A stretch of 44,481 bases of DNA. It comes from a virus. Both the position numbers and the translations under genes were made by a program. The notes under the pieces were generated by a model, which made no database searches, was not told the origin of the DNA, and worked only from the letters and a program-made list of their open reading frames with translations. Below are positions 8,797 through 42,544 of this stretch, in pieces. The stretch lies in the IMG/VR virus record IMGVR_UViG_3300018082_000015, positions 1 through 44,481 of that record; one strand, 5' to 3'. Positions within the stretch are counted from its first letter, which is position 1. The number at the start of each line of letters is the position of its first letter.

Positions 8797-9780
8797 TTGG
8801 CGACCCTGTACGTGCGTCCCAGAACGCTCCCGGATGGTTCGCGACGCTTCGACGTGAAGTACCGCCGCGGCGGCCGCTACACCCCGCTCGAGCACGGCGG
8901 AACGTTCCGCACGCGCAAGGAAGCCAACGCCCGGCATGGCCTCGTCGCCACCTGGCTCGCGGCCGGCCTGAACCCGAAGGTGGAGCTGCGGCGGGTCGTA
9001 GCTCCGGCGCGGACGCTCGCCGAGTTGCAGGAGGAGTGGCTCGCGGGCAAGCGGCGGATCGCCGACAGCACGCTGCGAGGCTACCGCTCGCGGCAGATCC
9101 GGATCGACGAGGACCTCGGAGAGCGCGCGGTCGCCGAGCTCGGCGTCGCCGACGTCGGCGCCTGGGTAGGAAGCCTCGTCTCCGAGTTCGAGCCGAGCAC
9201 GGTCTCGGGCTACGTCGGCCAGCTTCGCATGATCCTCGATCTCCTCGACACGCCGAATGTCGCGCGCTCGAGGCGCGTCGAGCTTCCCCGCGTCGTACAC
9301 AAGGAGATCGACCCGCCCGACGCCGCCGAAGTTCTCGCGCTCTTTCGGTCTCTGGACGAAGCCGTGCTCTTCCCGGCGCTCGCGATGGAGCAGCTCGGAA
9401 GCCGCGTCTCGGAGACGCTCGGGCTGCGGCGCGACGACGTGCAGGAGGCCGCCGTGCGCTTCCGCCGCGAGGACGTGAAGCGGCAGCGGGGTAGCCGCCT
9501 CGTGCCCTGCTCCTCGTTGGTGGCCTCCGCCCTGGCCGAGCGCGTGCCCTTCCAAACGACGCGCGTGACGGTCTGGCGCAAGCTGACCGATGCGAGCACG
9601 ATCCACCCGCATCTGCTCCGCCACCGCCGCGGGAGTCTCTGGCATCAGCAGGGCGTCGTCGCCGTGGAGCTCGCGCGCAGGCTCGGGCACGCGAAGGCCT
9701 CGATGAGCCTCGACGTCTACAGCCACGCCAAGCCGCTGCGCGAGATCGCGCCTCACGCCTTGGCCTCCTTGCTCAGGTAG
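8797..9780 (+). CDS. int: tyrosine-type integrase
   Basis: 327 aa, TTG start. An N-terminal AP2-like arm-binding region (about 1-60) and a core-binding SAM-like region (about 72-160) precede the catalytic domain. Catalytic residues are visible as Arg203 (GSRVSETLGLRRDD), His272 and Arg275 (HPHLLRH), His298 (LGHAKASMS) and Tyr308 (DVYSH). It would catalyse site-specific integration into the host chromosome. It is one of the few plus-strand phage genes and its 3' end overlaps a converging excisionase-like gene by 28 bases. Confidence 0.92.
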   Translation: MATLYVRPRTLPDGSRRFDVKYRRGGRYTPLEHGGTFRTRKEANARHGLVATWLAAGLNPKVELRRVVAPARTLAELQEEWLAGKRRIADSTLRGYRSRQIRIDEDLGERAVAELGVADVGAWVGSLVSEFEPSTVSGYVGQLRMILDLLDTPNVARSRRVELPRVVHKEIDPPDAAEVLALFRSLDEAVLFPALAMEQLGSRVSETLGLRRDDVQEAAVRFRREDVKRQRGSRLVPCSSLVASALAERVPFQTTRVTVWRKLTDASTIHPHLLRHRRGSLWHQQGVVAVELARRLGHAKASMSLDVYSHAKPLREIAPHALASLLR

Positions 9781-34494: not shown

Positions 34495-35939
34495 CAGCTG
34501 TCCAGCACCTTGAAGGCCGTAGTCGAGAGGACGCCCGCGCCGTTGCGCCAGTAGGCGTAGAGGCCGCGCTGTCCACTCGGCCGGTTGTTGGCCGTCGCGA
34601 ACATGTGTGGAATCAGCTCCACCGAGAGTCCCACCCGATCGGCGATCAGGTAGTAGGAGAAGTCCCCGAAAACGATGATCTTCGCTCCGGTCGTAACCGT
34701 CGCTGCCATTGCCGAGGACTCGTACGCTCCGTAACCGAGCACCCGTGCCCCGTCGCCGTAACTGCCCGGCGTTGGAACCTGATTCGGGAGCCCGACTCGC
34801 AGGTTGTCCAGCCACACACCCGAGCCGCCAGCCGTATCGAATTGGCGGATCTTCTGCGCGATTGCCCGGTTCATCACCATGACCGCACGCGGCCTGAAGC
34901 GCGGTCCGAGTGCATTCTCGAGCGCGTACAGATCCGCGATGACGAAGGCGTTCGCCGTCGCCGTATCCGTCGTCGAGGTCGCCCCGGTGATGACACCCGA
35001 GGGCTCATTGGTACCCGAGCCAACGGCGAATTTCGATGCCTCCAGCTCGTCCTTCGCGTCCTGAAGCAGCCGAGCCATCTCCGTCTGAAGCCCCGCCCAG
35101 TCCATGCCGATCTCGATCGAGAAGGGCACGAAAGCCTGCGCCTTCTCCGTGGAGACGGTCGGCTGCACGAGCGTGGGTGCGTTGTCGGAAGCCTCGGTGA
35201 CTTCCGCCGCGTAAGCCGCGGTGATGCCCGCCGAGGAGACTCCTCGCCACTCATCGACCAGGATCTGCTCCACCCGCGAGATCGCCCGAAACGGGTTGAC
35301 CGCCAGGTTGGAGGTCGGGATGATCGTCGGATCGAGCACGAACGGCACCGCGAACCCGCCCGCCGAGGTCGTCAGCGAGAGGGCGCGCTGCTCGTCCTGG
35401 TTCAGCATCTGCCCGCTGATGTACTTCCCGAAAGCCCGCTTGTACGCCGGGCTTCCGGTGACGAGCATGTGCCTCGCGAGCGTCCCCTGCCTGTCGTCGA
35501 TCGAATCGAGCATCCGCGCCAGGTGTCCCTGCACGCTCTCACGATCCGCCCGCTCGTGCGGAAACGTCGCAGCCTCGACCGCACGCATGGCGCGGTCACG
35601 GAGCTCCGTCTTCGCCTCTTCGGGGCTCGAGACCGATGCTCGCACCGTCGAAAGGTCGTAGATGTCCTCTCCGCGCACGACGCCCGGGCGCGGAGTGTGG
35701 AATCCCGCTCCAGTCTCCTGTGAGCCGGGGACTTGGCTCAGCTCGTCGACACGAGCCTTGCGAGCGCGAAGCTCGCCTATGAGGCTCGTGTTCGCCTCCT
35801 GCTCGTCGTTCAGCCGGTTCCACTCTTCCCGGCTGTCGTCGGGGAGAGCTTGGCCGGCGAACTCCGCGTCGATCTCCTGGAGGCGGCCTTTGATCTCGGT
35901 CTGACGTGCCTCCAGCTCTTCGATGGTCACAGTCGCCAC
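34494..35939 (-). CDS. major capsid protein, HK97 fold
   Basis: 481 aa; GTG start with AAGGAGGA six bases upstream. The N-terminal helical delta domain (VTIEELEARQTEIKGRLQEI) is a scaffold part removed by the protease. The body has AVPFVLDPTIIPTSNLAVNP, VPFSIEIGMDWAGLQTEMAR, GSGTNEPSGVITGATSTTDT and GDFSYYLIADRVGLSVELIP, all hallmark blocks of HK97-type capsids. The protease start lies upstream and overlaps by 13 bases. Confidence 0.9.
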   Translation of the reverse strand: MATVTIEELEARQTEIKGRLQEIDAEFAGQALPDDSREEWNRLNDEQEANTSLIGELRARKARVDELSQVPGSQETGAGFHTPRPGVVRGEDIYDLSTVRASVSSPEEAKTELRDRAMRAVEAATFPHERADRESVQGHLARMLDSIDDRQGTLARHMLVTGSPAYKRAFGKYISGQMLNQDEQRALSLTTSAGGFAVPFVLDPTIIPTSNLAVNPFRAISRVEQILVDEWRGVSSAGITAAYAAEVTEASDNAPTLVQPTVSTEKAQAFVPFSIEIGMDWAGLQTEMARLLQDAKDELEASKFAVGSGTNEPSGVITGATSTTDTATANAFVIADLYALENALGPRFRPRAVMVMNRAIAQKIRQFDTAGGSGVWLDNLRVGLPNQVPTPGSYGDGARVLGYGAYESSAMAATVTTGAKIIVFGDFSYYLIADRVGLSVELIPHMFATANNRPSGQRGLYAYWRNGAGVLSTTAFKVLDS

Positions 35940-36676
35940 GCTGGTTCCTCCTTCTGATCTCGTAGGTGGTCACGCCCTTGCTCGCGGCGCGCCTGCCCCG
36001 AGGTGGAAGACCCGGCGTCGGGTGTGGCGGGTGCGTCGTCCCCAGCAGGGACGAGTGCTGCAAGTCGAATCAGCTCGCGAGCCCGGTCCGGGTTACTCGC
36101 GATCTGCTCGAACAGAAAGTGGTCGGTGAGTGAGCGGACGCCGGCCGTCGCCTCCGCATAGGCGGGGAACGTGACCGGTCCGAACTCGAAGAGGCGGACC
36201 TCTTTCAGCGTGCGCTCGGGAAGCGCATTTGGATTGTCGTCTGAGGCTTCCGGCTTCTCGACGCGCTCCTCGCGCATTACCTCGAACCGGAAGGAAGCCC
36301 CGTAAAGGCCCGCCTCGAGTCCTGGAACGAGCTCCCGGTTGTAGGACGTGTCGAGAAGCGGGACCTCGTAATACGGCCCCTCATCCTCCTCGCGCAGCTC
36401 CGTGATGGGGCCGAGCGGCTTGTCACCGGCCTGCGGGTCGCGTCCGTGCTGGAAGAGCGCCCGGATCTTGTCCCGGTTCTCGCGAAACGTCTTCTTGAAG
36501 GCTCCCGGAGCGATCCGCTCGAGGAAGTGATCCTCGAACCAGGAATCGATCTCCGCCCAGCGGTTGAAGACGGCGAAGTGGCCGAAGAGCGTCGGCATCC
36601 CACCATCGCCATCGGCCCGCAGCTCGGGTCCCGGCTGGAGTGCGCGGATGAGCTGCTCACGCGGCTTATCACTCAC
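35927..36676 (-). CDS. prohead maturation protease (HK97 U35/S78 type)
   Basis: 249 aa from GTG 36676, set by a CCGATAGGC box ending six bases upstream. FGHFAVFNRWAEIDSWFEDH and FLERIAPGAFKKTF give the family start. Likely catalytic His77 (LFQHGRD) and Ser128 (LYGASFRFEV) are present. It would cleave the capsid delta domain. The same frame extends upstream into the split small gene and then into the mobile element, where a GTG (36769) can start a fused product. The ancestral frame also joined the two without a stop. Confidence 0.85.
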   Translation of the reverse strand: MSDKPREQLIRALQPGPELRADGDGGMPTLFGHFAVFNRWAEIDSWFEDHFLERIAPGAFKKTFRENRDKIRALFQHGRDPQAGDKPLGPITELREEDEGPYYEVPLLDTSYNRELVPGLEAGLYGASFRFEVMREERVEKPEASDDNPNALPERTLKEVRLFEFGPVTFPAYAEATAGVRSLTDHFLFEQIASNPDRARELIRLAALVPAGDDAPATPDAGSSTSGQARREQGRDHLRDQKEEPAWRL

Positions 36677-36682
36677 GCCCGC

Positions 36683-36691
36683 GCCTATCGG
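36683..36691 (-). promoter_or_regulatory. CCGATAGGC initiation box 7
   Basis: Precedes protease GTG 36676 by 6 bases. Here the box itself is translated in the upstream frame (as SPIGA), unlike most others, which follow a stop. Confidence 0.65.
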
Positions 36692-36743
36692 CGAGGATGA
36701 AGACTCCTGAGCGTACAGAGCCGCCATCTGCTTCTCGGCTCCC
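36692..36743 (-). pseudogene. 3' remnant of the interrupted small gene
   Basis: It reads GAEKQMAALYAQESSS in the protease frame. Joined to the 5' part at 41109-40998 with one 8-bp target copy, it rebuilds a continuous product. The remnant now lies between the element and the protease. Confidence 0.75.
36736..36743. repeat. 8-bp target duplication, left
   Basis: CGGCTCCC abuts the left inverted repeat of the element and matches 40998-41005. Confidence 0.85.
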
Positions 36744-36760
36744 GGTAGTGGGTCAGTTTG
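36744..36760. repeat. left terminal inverted repeat
   Basis: GGTAGTGGGTCAGTTTG; one mismatch to the right end. Read on the minus strand it encodes part of the new protease-frame N-terminus. Confidence 0.85.
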
Positions 36761-36948
36761 GCTAGTCACTCAGTAACGTTATGGCTCCGCCCGCCTTGAG
36801 AGCCGATACGTCTGCGTGAAAAGGTTGTTACGCTCTGGGGCTTGTGACATGCGAAACAAGTCGGCGCTGGCATCATCGATTGTGCTGTCCTCGTTGGAAC
36901 GAACCAACATGTGCACATTTGGTGCTGCCTCAATAGACTCTCGCCACC

Positions 36949-37275
36949 GTGCCTGGCTCAGGCGCTCAGGAGCAGCAGCAGCATGAATTGGCGCTCTTTC
37001 GTGCCCGGCGGCGCTACGACCTCCTCATGCGGATTTTCTCGGCGGGCTCGCCGCTCGGAATTGCTGCGCTCTACTTCCCTTTCCGAGGCGCGGTTCCCAT
37101 TGTGGAGGCACTATCCGGCGAAAGCACGAGCATCAGCGTCAAGGCGTCCATTGGCGTCACGATCACGTACGCGCTGGCCATCACGATCGGAGCCATTGTG
37201 CTGGTAGTCAGGAATCAAGCTCGATCCAGTGAGATTCAGAGGCTACGGGAACGCCTTGGCGAGGAAGTTCCATGA
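36949..37275 (+). CDS. cargo membrane protein A, 108 aa
   Basis: GTG start after TAGACT, a possible -10 box. The N-terminus is cytosolic and basic (LALFRARRRYDLLMRIFSAG). Two membrane spans follow (SPLGIAALYFPF and SIGVTITYALAITIGAIVLV), with a C-terminal charged coiled coil (RSSEIQRLRERLGEEV). It overlaps protein B by ATGA, so the two are likely a complex. No family recognised. The 190 bases before it hold no clear gene beyond a weak 45-codon frame. Confidence 0.65.
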   Translation: MPGSGAQEQQQHELALFRARRRYDLLMRIFSAGSPLGIAALYFPFRGAVPIVEALSGESTSISVKASIGVTITYALAITIGAIVLVVRNQARSSEIQRLRERLGEEVP

Positions 37276-37943
37276 CCGCTCTAGCGGTAGTGGCGGTTTG
37301 CGTCATGGCGCTAGCCGCTTGGGTTTCGATCTTTGTCGTGATCCCGTCATGCGCCCGAAGCTTCTTTCGGTACAGGCTTTGGAGGCTGCGGGACCTCGTG
37401 ACAGATGAGATCCGAGAGGGGGCCTATTTAGACAAGCACCAGCCTCGTCTCTTGGTCAAAGAAATCGACGCGGGGATTTTTCTTGGTTCGCAGCTAAGTC
37501 TGTTCAGGCTCACGCTGGCCGCCTTGAACTGGCGGAACCTCGAGCCGCACGATGAGGAGGAATGGTTCGATCTCAGCGCCGCAAATGCAGCGGACAGTGA
37601 CCGCTTGCGTGAGCGGTCTAACGAACTTCACTATGCGTTCGCGAAGTTCATGGTTCTTGGTTCCCCGAGCGGATGGCTATTCGGTGCTGTCATGTTCCCT
37701 CTGGCACTCACAGTCACGCTTTGGACGACTTTTTCTGACAGCAGCAGCGTCCCCGCTCGTGATGTTCAAGTGCGACGAGGTGAGCTCCGTCGCCGGCTCG
37801 CCGTCATTCGGCTCGCGGTGTCGGATGTGTTCCTTCAGGCTAGGTCGCGGGTGCGAGACGAAGTACCTTTCGAGCCGGAGACAGCACTTGCGCGGCTCCT
37901 GGGCCAGCAAATCGATCGGCCCTCGCACGCGGGCTACGCCTAA
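37272..37943 (+). CDS. cargo membrane protein B, 223 aa
   Basis: Span 1 is at the N-terminus (LAVVAVCVMALAAWVSIFVV) and span 2 near 145 (WLFGAVMFPLALTVTLWTTF). Between them is a soluble, charged loop of about 115 residues (DEIREGAYLDKHQPRLLVKE) and after span 2 a basic tail with a helix (RRLAVIRLAVSDVFLQARSR). No known catalytic motif. Coupled to protein A by ATGA. Possibly a membrane effector with A as partner; this is inference. Confidence 0.65.
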   Translation: MTALAVVAVCVMALAAWVSIFVVIPSCARSFFRYRLWRLRDLVTDEIREGAYLDKHQPRLLVKEIDAGIFLGSQLSLFRLTLAALNWRNLEPHDEEEWFDLSAANAADSDRLRERSNELHYAFAKFMVLGSPSGWLFGAVMFPLALTVTLWTTFSDSSSVPARDVQVRRGELRRRLAVIRLAVSDVFLQARSRVRDEVPFEPETALARLLGQQIDRPSHAGYA

Positions 37944-37984
37944 CAAGTAGGGCATACGCCGCGCGGGCTGCTACGCTCGTGGCG

Positions 37985-38224
37985 ATGCCTGACCGCTCAC
38001 GCAAGCGTCCACGCGACCCAAACGAACTCGCCCGCCAGATCGTGGACGAGGCTACCGGCGAAGCGCCGCCGTTCGACCCCGACGAGGGGAAGAATCCTGC
38101 CGCCGTCGCGCTCGGGCGAAAGGGCGGGCTCAAAGGTGGGAAGGCGCGCGCGGCGAAGATGTCGCCTGAGCAACGATCGGAAGCAGCACGGAAAGCAGCG
38201 CAGGCTCGGTGGCGTAAGCCCTAG
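37985..38224 (+). CDS. KGG-motif basic small protein, 79 aa
   Basis: PDRSRKRPRDPNELARQIVD leads to a conserved C-terminus (GRKGGLKGGKARAAKMSPEQ, ending RKAAQARWRKP) resembling widespread small basic proteins with KGG repeats. ATG 37985 lies 7 bases after TACGCT, fitting leaderless initiation; GTG 37979 is an alternative. Probably nucleic acid-binding. It converges with the ImmA/IrrE gene, sharing 4 bases at their ends. Confidence 0.65.
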   Translation: MPDRSRKRPRDPNELARQIVDEATGEAPPFDPDEGKNPAAVALGRKGGLKGGKARAAKMSPEQRSEAARKAAQARWRKP

Positions 38225-39324
38225 CCGGCTGTTCCGTCCACGAGCCTAAGCTCGCCGAGCGGGGACATAGGTTTACCACCCTCACCGCTGCCTTCTAGCG
38301 GCGTCATGACGAGGCCGAACATGAGCGCCCGAAGTTCGCTCATCGGCAGATCGAGTGCTTCGGCGATATGCGACTTGCGCACACCCTCTTTGCGAAGTTG
38401 CGCCAGGACTTTGGCCAACACCTGTGAGCTTTCTCGTTTGATGGGCTCGGGCTCGTTCTTCCTATACCCGCGTCGGGAAATGTCCATGTAGAGAGAGCGA
38501 TACTGCCAGTCTGAAAGCAATCCGAGATCATGCATGCGGTATGTCAGTGCAGCTACGGCGACCTTCCATCTTTTCTTTGCGACGATGAGTTGATCCAATG
38601 ACGGGAACCGTGGCGCATGGGCTTTCACATCGCCCTTTGGCATCAGGAACGCGGAAGCGAAGTCTCTCGCTTCCTTTTCGATCTCGCGCCCACGCGTAAT
38701 CTGCGCTCGCGCGTGGAGCACGAGATGACCGAGTTCATGTGCGGCATCCATACGGCTACGCTCGCCCGACTTCTTCGTATTGAGAAACACGAACGGCAAG
38801 CCGTGGCGCCATGTCGAGAAGGCGTCGAGCTCGGCGTAGTCCTCAGCAAGCGAGAAGACGCGCACCCCGTGTGCTTCCAGTAGGTGGATCATGTTGGGGA
38901 TCGGCTTTTCGCCAAGTCCCCATTCCATGCGCACTACTTCAGCTGCACGCTCGGGGTCCTCGCCGTCGAGATGCTGCGGAAGATCTGGAGTAGGCAACCG
39001 GAACCGCTCAGCGAGCCAGTCATGGACGGCACAGGCGAGCGTTCCTCCAGCGACAGCGCGCCCAACCTGCTTCGCCGTGAGCTTGCTTAGGGCACGAAAG
39101 CTTGCCGTATCGGGCGTGAGTTCCTCGAGATCAGGACCTTCGAAGAAGCCAACCGGGAAGTCGAGCACGCGAGCAAGTTCGTCGACAGTCTCGGGAAGCG
39201 GCTCGTGTTGGTCGCTTTCCCAACCTGTGATGCTGCGCACCGAGACGCCGGCGAGCTTTGCGAGCTCAGTCTTCGTAAGTCCCCTGCGCTTTCGCGCAAG
39301 AGAAAGACGAGACGAATGAAACAT
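38221..39324 (-). CDS. XRE-HTH fused to ImmA/IrrE metallopeptidase
   Basis: 367 aa. N-terminal helix-turn-helix (GLTKTELAKLAGVSVRSITG, residues about 15-34). The zinc protease motif HELGH is at 196-200 (DAAHELGHLVLH), with the distal glutamate in EKEARDFASAFLMP. Such proteins cleave phage or element repressors, or sense damage. The C-terminal 100 residues contain KSHIAEALDLPMSELRALMF, a second DNA-contact-like region. It is co-transcribed with the 215-aa partner upstream (TGATG). Confidence 0.85.
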   Translation of the reverse strand: MFHSSRLSLARKRRGLTKTELAKLAGVSVRSITGWESDQHEPLPETVDELARVLDFPVGFFEGPDLEELTPDTASFRALSKLTAKQVGRAVAGGTLACAVHDWLAERFRLPTPDLPQHLDGEDPERAAEVVRMEWGLGEKPIPNMIHLLEAHGVRVFSLAEDYAELDAFSTWRHGLPFVFLNTKKSGERSRMDAAHELGHLVLHARAQITRGREIEKEARDFASAFLMPKGDVKAHAPRFPSLDQLIVAKKRWKVAVAALTYRMHDLGLLSDWQYRSLYMDISRRGYRKNEPEPIKRESSQVLAKVLAQLRKEGVRKSHIAEALDLPMSELRALMFGLVMTPLEGSGEGGKPMSPLGELRLVDGTAG

Positions 39325-39971
39325 CAGATGCGTTCAACGGCGATATCGAGGTCGCCCTCATTCTCGTCGTCATCCTGTTCTCGATCGCGTCTACCAACCG
39401 GCTCGTTGGTGTCGATCATCGGCAGGATGATCCGCTCACCTTCGAAGGCGACTCGGCCGTTGACCTCGCGCGTGGGTTCGGAGAGCTCGGAGTAGATGAT
39501 GCCGTTTTTCCGAGCGATCAACAAAGTCCAGATCTCGTCAGGGAGTTTGGGTGCCGCAAGTGCATCATCCTCGGGCAAGAAAGACAGCTGGTCCCGAATC
39601 CGCAAGAGCTCGAAGAAGACCTCGCCCTTCTTGTGGCGAGTGTGCGGGGAGGCACCGTCCCGTCCGGCGCGGTCATCGCCAGTGGCGACCATGAGTGCGA
39701 CACCACGATCGGGCCGGACCGTCAGCGAGAACATGTGCAGCTCCTCGGCCGTCCAACTACTCGGTACAAGCTCCTCGCGCAACCCTCTGACAGTTCGCCC
39801 CCAGCCGAGAATTCCTCCCAGGATTCGCGGGTCGAGGCGCGTGCAGCTTCGGCGCTCCGACTCACCGAACAGCACCGCCGCTCGCAGGGTTTCCAGCGTG
39901 ACCCCGATAAGTCGGAGCCGCGCTTTCACGAGGTCTTCTCGGACGTAGATCTTGCGGACGGGCTCGTTCAT
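39324..39971 (-). CDS. partner of the ImmA/IrrE protein, 215 aa
   Basis: The ATG follows GGGAGG. The sequence opens with RKIYVREDLVKARLRLIGVT and includes WGRTVRGLREELVPSSWTAE, then FAxx-like and acidic tail segments (DREQDDDENEGDLDIAVERI). No known fold recognised. It is coupled by TGATG to the protease gene. The pair may be a regulator/substrate and protease, or a toxin-antitoxin-like module. Confidence 0.6.
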   Translation of the reverse strand: MNEPVRKIYVREDLVKARLRLIGVTLETLRAAVLFGESERRSCTRLDPRILGGILGWGRTVRGLREELVPSSWTAEELHMFSLTVRPDRGVALMVATGDDRAGRDGASPHTRHKKGEVFFELLRIRDQLSFLPEDDALAAPKLPDEIWTLLIARKNGIIYSELSEPTREVNGRVAFEGERIILPMIDTNEPVGRRDREQDDDENEGDLDIAVERI

Positions 39972-40050
39972 GGCCGACCTCCCTTCATCGTTTCCTGTTA
40001 CGCTACCTCATCTGAGGCGAAGAAACAAGCAACGATTGCCTGGAAACTGC

Positions 40051-40078
40051 TTGACATGCAAGACCGCTCACGTATAAT
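40051..40078 (+). promoter_or_regulatory. consensus promoter of the transposase (leaderless)
   Basis: TTGACA (40051-40056) and TATAAT (40073-40078) are both perfect with 16 bases between. The ATG at 40086 is 7 bases after the -10 box, so the transcript would start at or next to the start codon. Confidence 0.75.
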
Positions 40079-40085
40079 GGTCAAT

Positions 40086-40988
40086 ATGAATCGGCTTTCG
40101 GCGGAGAGGCGTATTGCGGTTGTAGCAGCGCTGTCGGAGGGCAACAGCATCCGCTCCACGTGCCGAATGACCGGCGTGGCGAAGAACACCGTCACCAAGC
40201 TGCTCATCGATCTCGGGACAGCCTGCTCGGTCTTCCAAGACCGCGTGATGCGCGACCTGACGTGCGAGCGCATCCAGGTCGATGAGATTTGGGCGTTCGT
40301 CTACAGCAAGCAGAAGAACGTTCCTAAGCACAAGCGCGGCGAGGCTGGCGACGTGTGGACGTGGGTTGCGATCGACTCGGATACAAAGCTCGTCCCGACC
40401 TATCGGATCGGAGCCCGCGACATGGTCGATGCTCGCGCGTTCATCGAAGACCTCGCCAGTCGGCTGAGCAATCGCATCCAGCTGACAACGGACGGCCATG
40501 TTCCGTACCTCACGGCTGTCAAGCATGCCTTCAGGGGCGAGATCGATTACGCGCAGCTGGTGAAGATTTACGGCCGAGACACAAGCGGACGGCCAGAACG
40601 CCGCTACTCGCCAGCCGTCTGTCTCGGCGCAGACTCGCGCACGGTCAGCGGCGATCCCGACCCCGACTACATCAGCACAAGCCACGTCGAGCGGCTGAAC
40701 CTGAGTATGCGAATGGGCATGCGGCGTTACACGCGTCTGACCAATGCCTTCTCCAAGAAGGTCGAGAACCTGGCCGCAGCCGTGAGCCTTCACTTCATGC
40801 ACTACAACTTCTGTCGCGTCCACAAGACACTCGGTACGACCCCGGCTGTGGCGGCAGGTGTGGCCGATCACGTCTGGACATTGGCTGAGTTGATCGGTCT
40901 GCTTGAGGCAGCCGAGGCCACGACGATCAAGCGCGGCCGATACGCCAAGACCCGCGACCGCCGCCACCGGGGTCAGGTTTCAGACTGA
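40086..40988 (+). CDS. IS1-family-like transposase, 300 aa
   Basis: The N-terminal helix-turn-helix (NSIRSTCRMTGVAKNTVTKL) is followed by a DDE catalytic domain: first Asp in IQVDEIWAF, second in LTTDGHVPY, and Glu in STSHVERLNLSMRMGMRRYT. The closing block KKVENLAAAVSLHFMHYNFC is typical of the group. It would move the whole 4.25-kb element. Unlike classic IS1, it is one unbroken frame. The TGA lies in the right inverted repeat. Confidence 0.85.
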   Translation: MNRLSAERRIAVVAALSEGNSIRSTCRMTGVAKNTVTKLLIDLGTACSVFQDRVMRDLTCERIQVDEIWAFVYSKQKNVPKHKRGEAGDVWTWVAIDSDTKLVPTYRIGARDMVDARAFIEDLASRLSNRIQLTTDGHVPYLTAVKHAFRGEIDYAQLVKIYGRDTSGRPERRYSPAVCLGADSRTVSGDPDPDYISTSHVERLNLSMRMGMRRYTRLTNAFSKKVENLAAAVSLHFMHYNFCRVHKTLGTTPAVAAGVADHVWTLAELIGLLEAAEATTIKRGRYAKTRDRRHRGQVSD

Positions 40989-40991
40989 CCC
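40970..40991. repeat. inverted repeat at the right end
   Basis: GGGTCAG and CTGACCC flank GTTTCAGA. It may act as a transposase terminator, or as a second transposase-binding copy of the end sequence. Confidence 0.5.
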
Positions 40992-40997
40992 ACTACC
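40985..40997. repeat. right terminal inverted repeat (core 13 bp)
   Basis: CTGACCCACTACC is the exact reverse complement of the left end core; the match extends to 16 of 17 bases from 40981. Confidence 0.85.
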
Positions 40998-41109
40998 CGG
41001 CTCCCGCTTTGGAGATATGGCAGGCGACGATAGAGCCATCCGAGTCCTTGATGAGCGCCCACGGCTTGGTGGACGGGCAGCGGGAGGACTTCGCGACATG
41101 CCAGGGCAC
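40993..41109 (-). pseudogene. 5' remnant of the interrupted small gene
   Basis: GTG 41109, after CCGATAGGC by 6 bases, reads WHVAKSSRCPSTKPWALIKD then SDGSIVACHISKAGAG and stops at TAG inside the element end. The CPxxKPWAxIKDSDG pattern is that of a small actinophage protein found between portal and protease, whose usual end resembles KAxAEKxxAALYA. The 3' part survives at 36743-36692. The 38-residue truncated product may still be made. Confidence 0.8.
40998..41005. repeat. 8-bp target duplication, right
   Basis: CGGCTCCC, identical to 36736-36743. Confidence 0.85.
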
Positions 41110-41115
41110 TGCCGC

Positions 41116-41124
41116 GCCTATCGG
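41116..41124 (-). promoter_or_regulatory. CCGATAGGC initiation box 8
   Basis: Directly after the portal TAG and 6 bases before GTG 41109 of the interrupted gene. Confidence 0.7.
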
Positions 41125-41125
41125 C

Positions 41126-42544
41126 CTACTCCACGACTACGGGCTCCTCGACCTTGCCATTCGAGTTCGTAGGCTCGCCGCCGGGATAAAGCTGCACGCT
41201 CGTCTTGCCCGAGTGCTTCAAGCGCTTGAGATCGCCGGAAGTGACCGCATCGACGACCGAGGAGGGTTCGTATCCGCCATCGGTGCCCTCCCGAATCGCG
41301 GACATCTGAATCTTAATGACCTCAGCGGCGTCCTTGACGTCTTCCTGCAAAAACGGGATGTCGCGGTCGTCGTACCAGAGCTCAGCGGCCGGCGGAATAT
41401 CAATGATCGACGAGAGCGAGCCAGCGATATTCCGCCAGAGCGGCCGCATCGTTCCGTCCGCGAAGCGTCGGCGCGCCTGCCCGTAGTTCGAATACGTCGC
41501 TGCCTGAAGCCCCTCGGAGAGACCCACGATGACGGGAGGAACGCCAGCGGCGGCCGCGATGCGCGTCTCGCCTGCGCCCTGGGTGGCCTTGAATTCGACT
41601 TGCTTGAGATCCGAGCCGACGATCTTCGCGTCCGCACCGCCGGCCAGGAACATCGTCTGGTAGGCGTCGATTGTCGAGCGGTGGTGGTCTTTGAAGATGC
41701 TCACCCATTCGGCGAACTTCTTGGGATCGGTCTCCTGCGAGATGACAGCGAGGTTCGGGGTCGCCCCATTCTCGAAGTAGTTGAGCTTGTGCTCGGTCGC
41801 GGCCTTGTCGCCCATGATGTCCCGCAGCACTGGTGTCAACCAGGACATCCCCCGGAAGCGCGCCACCGGATCCGGGATGGGCGCGAAGTGGCAGACCTGC
41901 TCGGGTAGAAGCGGGACTGGCTTGCGAGTCCCGCGCGGGCCTCCCGGCTTGTACATGTAGCCGATGACCTCGGCGTCGGACGCAAAACCTGCCTCGTTCG
42001 GCTCGAGTTCGGAGCCGAGCACGATCGTCACCCAGTCCGGGCGAAGCCGTTTGAGCGTGTTAGCCTGGCGCACCGCGTAGAAGTTCCCGGCGAGATCGGC
42101 GTCCTGGATCGCTCGGGCCAGAAGATCGCCGGTCGTGCCATTCGGCCAGGGTCGCTCGAGGATTGCGAGTGCCTCCGTTCCGAAGAGATCGCCCGGACGT
42201 CCCGAGCGCAGCTGACGAAACTGGAAGCGGGCCTCCGAGAAGAGCAGGAAGCGGACGAGCATGCAGGCGAAGACGACGCCGTTCGTCTTGTACGCGCCCT
42301 GGACGTAGCCCTCGAAGGTCGGCTCGGGCTCCTCCTGCGGCTTGCCGCCCTGCGAGAGCGCCGGCATAAACGGATAGTTCTTCCCCTGGAAGCTGAACCA
42401 GGACATCCACTCGTCGAAGGAGAGCGGCTGAATCCCGGTAGAGCGCTCGAGATCCTGCCGCTTCTTCGCCTGCCTTATGTCGCGTCGCGTGGTGATGCGG
42501 AGCTGGCCGCTGCCAGGGATTTCTAGGTACCGACTCTCACCCAT
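41126..42544 (-). CDS. portal protein, HK97-type
   Basis: 472 aa. GATPNLAVISQETDPKKFAE, RSTIDAYQTMFLAGGADAKI, AGVPPVIVGLSEGLQAATYS and NYGQARRRFADGTMRPLWRN are signature portal blocks (clip/stem and crown-proximal helices). It forms the dodecameric ring for DNA entry. The start at ATG 42544 is one base after a 9-codon frame opened by the CCGATAGGC box, so the true N-terminus is uncertain. Confidence 0.9.
   Translation of the reverse strand: MGESRYLEIPGSGQLRITTRRDIRQAKKRQDLERSTGIQPLSFDEWMSWFSFQGKNYPFMPALSQGGKPQEEPEPTFEGYVQGAYKTNGVVFACMLVRFLLFSEARFQFRQLRSGRPGDLFGTEALAILERPWPNGTTGDLLARAIQDADLAGNFYAVRQANTLKRLRPDWVTIVLGSELEPNEAGFASDAEVIGYMYKPGGPRGTRKPVPLLPEQVCHFAPIPDPVARFRGMSWLTPVLRDIMGDKAATEHKLNYFENGATPNLAVISQETDPKKFAEWVSIFKDHHRSTIDAYQTMFLAGGADAKIVGSDLKQVEFKATQGAGETRIAAAAGVPPVIVGLSEGLQAATYSNYGQARRRFADGTMRPLWRNIAGSLSSIIDIPPAAELWYDDRDIPFLQEDVKDAAEVIKIQMSAIREGTDGGYEPSSVVDAVTSGDLKRLKHSGKTSVQLYPGGEPTNSNGKVEEPVVVE

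Follow-up and report, generated by a model that had tools for sequence, protein, structure and literature searches.

A cargo-bearing IS1-like element in a phage late operon and the element family to which it belongs

An IS1-like element in a viral genome

We analysed a stretch of viral DNA of 44,481 nucleotides (IMG/VR record IMGVR_UViG_3300018082_000015, hereafter the window), in which a unit of 4,254 base pairs (bp) at positions 36744-40997 has the features of a cargo-bearing insertion sequence (IS) of the IS1 type, inserted into the late operon of a phage. Its borders are defined to a single base by the sequence. The features that delimit it and its two core genes are as follows.

36736-36743, unstranded: left copy of the 8-bp target duplication, CGGCTCCC, identical to 40998-41005
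36744-36760, unstranded: left terminal inverted repeat, GGTAGTGGGTCAGTTTG, with one mismatch in 18 against the family end consensus GGTAGTGGGTCAGTTTGA
37979-38224, plus strand: conserved small protein of the element family, 81 residues, a core gene and not cargo (profile and alignment; the C-terminal motif matches phrog_2384, function unknown, E-value 9e-7)
40086-40988, plus strand: IS1-like DDE transposase, 300 residues in a single frame (Pfam DDE_Tnp_IS1, 26.7 bits against a cut-off of 24.1)
40981-40997, unstranded: right terminal inverted repeat, the reverse complement of the left end at 16 of 17 positions, overlapping the end of the transposase gene
40998-41005, unstranded: right copy of the target duplication, CGGCTCCC, identical in sequence to the left copy

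The inverted ends matching at 16 of 17 positions, the exact 8-bp duplication and the IS1-like transposase reaching the right end had all been proposed in an initial annotation of this DNA, and all were found again in the sequence. Five overlapping inverted pairs match at 16 of 17 positions in the region 36500-41300, and exactly one of them has identical 8-bp flanks; each of six mononucleotide shuffles of this region gave no pair at 16 of 17 and none with matching flanks. When the whole window was searched with the family end consensus (at most 4 mismatches in 18), the element's two ends were the only matches. The same insertion is present in a second record, L082 (IMG/VR IMGVR_UViG_3300018077_000028; labels beginning with L denote loci), which matches at 100% identity along 10,396 bp, both borders included, and may share its source with the window. 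L082 connects window ends 1 and 44481 through 406 additional bases, which makes the phage genome, of about 44.9 kb, circular or circularly permuted. A composite transposon was ruled out, as the window record has one such transposase gene and a single pair of ends.

A family with shared ends and variable cargo

We then considered 100 transposase loci, namely the best 80 of 192 relatives in a genome scan and 20 from a viral scan, one of which (L082) is the same phage. Of these loci, 61, the same phage included, have both ends together with a duplication that differs at no more than one position. The duplication was an exact 8 bp in 60 of them and had one mismatch in the remaining one, in line with the initial view that its length fits the IS1 family, where target duplications are about 8-9 bp. 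According to record and tree taxonomy, the 61 loci belong to at least 11 phyla. Close relatives were also examined in four plasmid records: those of Mesorhizobium loti, Hoeflea, and Acidiphilium each hold an element with an exact duplication, and that of Methylocapsa has both ends and no matching duplication. On the Acidiphilium plasmid, a RES-Xre pair was rejected as cargo, since it lies beyond the right end. The same ends, with other cargo, were thus found at 60 of the 99 loci besides the same phage and in three complete plasmids, as the initial annotation had anticipated.

The 61 loci and the three plasmid copies form a set of 64 elements of 1,365-4,779 bp (about 1.4-4.8 kb; upper-middle value, 3,218 bp). 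The shortest, L091 (1,365 bp), consists of the ends, the small gene, and the transposase alone, and the next shortest measures 1,993 bp; all elements but L091 have room for cargo. Cargo, initially taken as exceptional for such an element, is the rule in this clade. At the 64 target sites, T is scarce at positions 1 and 2 of the duplication, and position 7 is mostly C or T. In an even draw of 396 genomes from the phylum of G002 (Actinomycetota, as for L003; labels beginning with G denote genomes), the transposase (E-value ≤1e-20) was detected in 11, two of which have only fragments, and an RmrA-like protein (see below) in 20. The two lay at most 250 bases apart in three genomes, G042, G317, and G245, the last with a transposase fragment. 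A literature search confined to open-licence PMC papers found no description of the clade, the small protein or the cargo habit, and this widespread IS1-like family, nearly always with cargo and sharing an unnamed small gene, is apparently undescribed.

The conserved small gene

A profile search detected the small gene in 59 of the 64 elements, with the alignment consensus KRPRDxNQLA...KNPAAVALGRLGGLKGGKARAxKLTPxxRxEIAxKAAxARW. In 41 of these 59, the distance between the left end and the start of the match is 54-91 bp; in the window element it is 1.25 kb. Of the five elements without a profile hit, L064, L072, and L086 have a minus-strand match to the C-terminal part of the small protein, which in L064 and L072 lies at the start of a larger protein, whereas the profile found no small-protein match of any kind in L081 and L090. 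Across 511 kb of flanking sequence, one small-protein match fell outside the elements, at L003, where it adjoins a second, inverted copy of the transposase. A cluster of nine minus-strand open reading frames (ORFs) was dropped as a family after the profile search and interpreted as shadow ORFs lying over the small gene. The ratio of nonsynonymous to synonymous substitution (dN/dS) in the small gene was 0.04-0.22 in five pairs, in three of which dS exceeded 1, and on this basis the gene encodes a protein under purifying selection. None of 47 small-protein members had a Pfam match, and the C-terminal motif of the window copy gave matches to two PHROGs whose function is unknown. AlphaFold modelled three helices, with a predicted local distance difference test score (pLDDT) of 85.6 and a predicted template-modelling score (pTM) of 0.43. 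A tblastn search for the small protein in plasmids gave no match; yet the profile accepted the short gene of the M. loti element, which is labelled 'histone H1'.

Searching IMG/VR with the small protein alone yielded 37 loci. There were 14 near-full-length matches with the same phage excluded, and both ends were found at 12 of them, 8 of these 12 with a duplication that is exact or has one mismatch; of the other two, L209 has the right end and a transposase and L225 has neither. The other 22 of the 37 loci are mainly matches to the C-terminal motif without ends, one of them (L238) adjoining a family transposase, and the motif is evidently commoner than the element. Four of the 14 loci with near-full-length matches have no transposase gene but keep both ends and the small gene (L212:5935-8373, L214:3122-4729, L217:5836-7117, and L218:3897-4508). 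The duplication is exact in L212, L214, and L218 and not in L217, and L214 keeps a transposase trace of 16-23 residues; these four are apparent non-autonomous copies. L218 measures just 612 bp and has a truncated small gene, and in L214 the small protein is extended to 176 residues. In addition, P63C-type or BstA-type cargo proteins begin with a fused copy of the small protein's C-terminal motif (KGGKARA...ARW) in L014, L027, L030, L033, L058, L064, L072, L074, and L080.

These fusions, the retention of the small gene in the four transposase-less copies and the abundance of the motif alone (22/37 loci) would suit a small gene that acts as a regulator or partner of the cargo. Alternatively, a requirement for the left end in cis could be the sole reason why the gene persists; on either account it would not be a transposition factor. 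Against a cargo partner, the gene accompanies very different cargo and is present in the cargo-free L091, and the low dN/dS is not what a need in cis alone would lead one to expect. We consider such roles possible, though rather less likely than a function in transposition.

Cargo of the window element and its exchange across the family

The remaining genes of the window element are listed below.

36949-37275, plus strand: cargo ORF, 108 residues, with hydrophobic stretches; no convincing family (one PHROG match, E-value 0.094)
37272-37943, plus strand: cargo ORF, 223 residues, with a hydrophobic N-terminus and a 4-nucleotide overlap with the preceding ORF; weak PADLOC 1TM-TIR match (E-value 0.018)
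38221-39324, minus strand: RmrA, the antitoxin half of RosmerTA, with an XRE helix-turn-helix and an ImmA/IrrE-type peptidase M78 (PADLOC RmrA, E-value 3.1e-151; Pfam M78, E-value 8e-19, and HTH_3, E-value 8e-13)
39324-39971, minus strand: RmrT, the toxin half of RosmerTA (PADLOC RmrT, E-value 3.7e-41)

Five further genes had initially been counted beside the transposase. Five ORFs are indeed present, and one of these supposed passengers (37979-38224) proved to be the conserved core gene. RmrA and RmrT are adjacent and abut at 39324, and these matches make them a RosmerTA pair, with a predicted anti-phage toxin-antitoxin function. RosmerTA pairs are known as toxin-antitoxin systems active against phages; according to PMC10440598, the pair from Gordonia phage Kita was confirmed in toxicity-neutralisation assays and gave protection from some coliphages. 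Kita was rejected as the source of the window pair, because its genome has no end-like sites (at most 4 mismatches) and its RmrA similarity is only a weak 25% fragment. Neither Pfam, NCBIfam, PADLOC nor PHROG gave a convincing match to the two overlapping membrane-like ORFs (36949-37943), and IMG/VR searches with RmrT and the 223-residue protein returned the same phage only.

Comparison of close relatives indicated how cargo varies. A left block of about 150-320 bp and the transposase block are 78-88% conserved, and the rest is mostly unrelated. The core is kept and the cargo replaced in L014 (P63C) and L033 (BstA), in L064 and L086, and in L004 and L007, the latter pair sharing a further 70 bp; L042 and L052 have cargo pieces in common too, and L083 and L084 share only the transposase block. 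In a transposase tree of 87 sequences, from which L011 and L039 (a stop in the extended frame) and L100 (partial) were left out, the four RmrA carriers included (of five) and the seven PD-Lambda-2-like carriers included (of nine), labelled from ORF clusters, are scattered.

Cargo proteins were then compared with their surroundings. We scanned 145 of 271 ORFs (≥125 residues) called in 73 elements, comprising the 61 loci and 12 with an imperfect duplication or a contig edge, and as a control 140 of 195 flanking ORFs called likewise. The commonest PADLOC models in cargo were PD-Lambda-2_B (9 members) and RmrA (5-7, by several models), with at most one each of RmrA and PD-Lambda-2 in the flanks. 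Pfam matches in cargo included HTH_3 (15), M78 (9), P63C (7), DNA methylase (3), Abi_2 (2), and Panacea (2); HTH_3, M78, and P63C occurred at most twice each in the flanks, as none is among the 25 families listed there. Single cargo proteins included BstA in L033 (E-value 2.8e-118), with a protein 41% like it in L080, RmrT in L065, PD-Lambda-2_B beside a HigB-like toxin in L006, and a methylase-Mrr fusion in L004. Among ten further large cargo proteins, five had no Pfam match at an E-value of 0.001. A cargo protein of 321-374 residues recurs in L012, L042, L052, L062, L071, L077, and L098; its L012 copy, the sole member scanned singly, matched nothing in Pfam or PADLOC, and the protein is a candidate new system.

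Could the passengers be random DNA that brings no benefit, with the defence content reflecting how common such genes are near mobile DNA? Much of the cargo is unannotated (five of the ten proteins just mentioned have no Pfam family), PADLOC matches are also found in the flanks, where AAA_21 is equally frequent, and IS elements with assorted passengers are already described in passages of PMC9330008, PMC3129680, and PMC7986276. However, the same modules recur in distant elements (PD-Lambda-2_B-like in 9, RmrA-like in 5, P63C in 7), and HTH_3 and M78 are far commoner in cargo than in flanks. Passive carriage thus seems to us improbable.

Affiliation of the transposase

D66, D136, E202, and R209 of the transposase are invariant in the alignment of 87 sequences and match the DDE(K/R) pattern. 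D122 and D154 are invariant likewise, and the assignment of the catalytic aspartates is therefore putative. Among NCBIfam models, the IS1 model is the best by about 30 bits, its 54 bits lying below the cut-off of 100, and the majority of annotated relatives are named IS1 family. Classical IS1 encodes InsA plus a frameshifted InsAB'; the transposase here is one open frame and does not have this arrangement. The IS1 family also includes single-frame groups, and a single frame is no reason to exclude membership in the wider family. No PDB sequence match was obtained for the transposase or the small protein.

The element might instead have a transposase of another DDE family, such as IS6 or IS1595, the latter being known for a passenger habit. 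The score for Pfam DDE_Tnp_IS240 (27.8) likewise exceeds the cut-off of that model (27), and the NCBIfam IS1 match falls short of its own. This is offset by the lead of the IS1 model and the naming of most annotated relatives, and by ends that start with GGTAGT and 8-bp duplications, as in a relative from Deinococcus (L264, 25%). That relative is a plain element of 1,178 bp with GGTAGTT ends and an 8-bp duplication, annotated as IS1 family. A non-IS1 origin accordingly appears quite unlikely. When borders were sought in four distant relatives (L263, L264, L265, and L186), a convincing pair was found in L264 only.

The insertion site

The late genes of the phage lie on the minus strand in the order portal, protease, capsid. 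The genes next to the element are the following.

41126-42544, minus strand: portal protein, the next gene upstream in the late operon (Pfam Phage_portal, E-value 9e-31)
41006-41125, minus strand: separated 5' part of the protease frame, whose present stop lies inside the right end of the element
35927-36743, minus strand: catalytic part of the prohead protease, downstream of the insertion (Pfam Peptidase_S78, E-value 1e-21)

Joining the flanks with a single copy of the duplication gives one open frame of 315 codons, with the junction 43 codons in; the frame opens in the final portal codons and continues into the protease. The S78 protease domain itself is intact. A match continues across the junction in 9 of 80 portal-related loci (L107, L118, L152, L153, L161, L164, L169, L170, and L171), and a short match crosses it in four more (L109, L128, L129, and L131). 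Gordonia phage Kita, whose portal is 46% identical to that of the window, has overlapping portal and protease genes without an insert. Because the joined flanks restore a protease frame that several related phages read through, we conclude from these alignments that the site was once empty. The borders, the gene order and the restored frame bear out the initial proposal of a cargo-bearing IS1-like element inserted between portal and prohead protease.

The initial annotation would have been contradicted by the same passengers at this site without the ends. Among the 79 portal-related loci besides the phage itself, none has a pair of element ends (L121 and L130 each have one isolated end-like match); with 13 of 80 loci crossing the junction and the overlapping genes of Kita, a cassette native to the phage at this site was ruled out. 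An assembly artefact that joined a bacterial element to a phage, which might be entertained in that both records are IMG/VR virus contigs and may share a source, can be dismissed with near certainty given the agreement of the second record across both borders, the exact 8-bp duplication and the open frame restored by the joined flanks.

The element's left end region contains a GTG (window position 36769) that shares the reading frame of the protease, and the insertion could provide a new start codon there. A 19-nucleotide imperfect direct repeat (2 mismatches; window 36674-36692 and 41107-41125) lies outside the element and inside the interrupted frame, probably by coincidence. The presence of an integrase gene (window 8797-9780; PHROG, E-value 7e-34) suggests that the phage is temperate.

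A transporter-type transposon and its relation to known systems

The element shares with classical IS1 a related DDE transposase, ends beginning with GGT and a short target duplication, and differs from it in its single-frame transposase, its size of 1.4-4.8 kb, its cargo, and its conserved small protein without a Pfam match. Tn7-like transposons are larger and have multi-gene machinery, whereas the present unit has one IS1-like transposase in less than 5 kb. In both, defence and toxin-antitoxin genes are carried among distant hosts (for Tn7-like transposons, PMC8649781). Tn3-family transposons may likewise have a toxin-antitoxin pair as passenger (a passage of PMC9330008), with a transposase different from that of the window element. 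Kita, too, has a phage-borne RosmerTA (PMC10440598, in part), but it lacks the element ends. The arrangement of the window unit, with a single pair of IS ends enclosing a transposase and genes unrelated to transposition, is that of a transporter IS as defined in sections of PMC9330008, PMC3129680, and PMC7986276. The clade stands apart from these in that almost all members found have cargo, that a further core gene is conserved, and that defence or toxin-antitoxin modules recur.

We therefore regard the element as, in all likelihood, a unit transposon of the IS1-like transporter type that operates as follows. The transposase would bind the ends of roughly 18 bp and join the element to a cut staggered by 8 bp. 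The small protein, which is conserved regardless of the cargo, probably assists transposition by binding DNA or as a regulator, and would occupy the place of InsA in classical IS1. The core (left end with the small gene, and the transposase) would persist, with the DNA between and to the right of it swapped by recombination, and the cargo, as an addiction and anti-phage module, may keep the element in its host. The element is now in a phage with an integrase gene, where RosmerTA could shield the lysogen from other phages. Transposase-less copies would move in trans.

Several observations weigh against this interpretation. The element is known from its sequence, from which its mobility is predicted, and defence by the window RosmerTA is presumed by analogy. 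The Kita genome gave no match to the window RmrT, and the toxins therefore differ. Of the 100 transposase loci, 39 lack the full signature (12 with both ends and no duplication, 2 with ends at a contig edge, 22 with one end, and 3 with none). Copies in the same genome diverge by 10-29% in their aligned parts, which argues against recent bursts. The 47 sequences behind the small-protein profile come from the same elements, the IMG/VR search with the small protein is the sole retrieval independent of the transposase, and a fold search of this protein against PDB found no match. Much of the cargo matches nothing, with 42 Pfam families in the 145 cargo proteins compared with 181 in the 140 flank proteins. 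PADLOC matches the flanks as well (163 models against 239; mad2 in 3 members against 4), and AAA_21 is as frequent in flanks as in cargo (3 and 3).

IS1-type elements are usually regarded as minimal transposons, whereas this clade, present in at least 11 phyla, nearly always carries cargo. It may represent a small, base-precise vehicle by which defence and toxin-antitoxin genes get to phages, plasmids, and chromosomes. Searches based on the ends and the small gene can mark out unknown cargo and thereby point to new defence systems, and the small protein itself is a candidate transposition factor. More tentatively, and with less than even confidence, the family could be a cosmopolitan IS1-derived class whose core is the transposase and a small helical DNA-binding protein, and which is a dedicated shuttle for defence and toxin-antitoxin modules, its slots refilled by recombination and its transposase-less copies moving in trans among bacteria, plasmids, and phages.

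A distant transposase relative (35%) was also observed in the 321-kb genome of Brevundimonas phage vB_BpoS-Gurke (L186, 171821-178666), in a stretch with one annotated gene and a family-like right end only.

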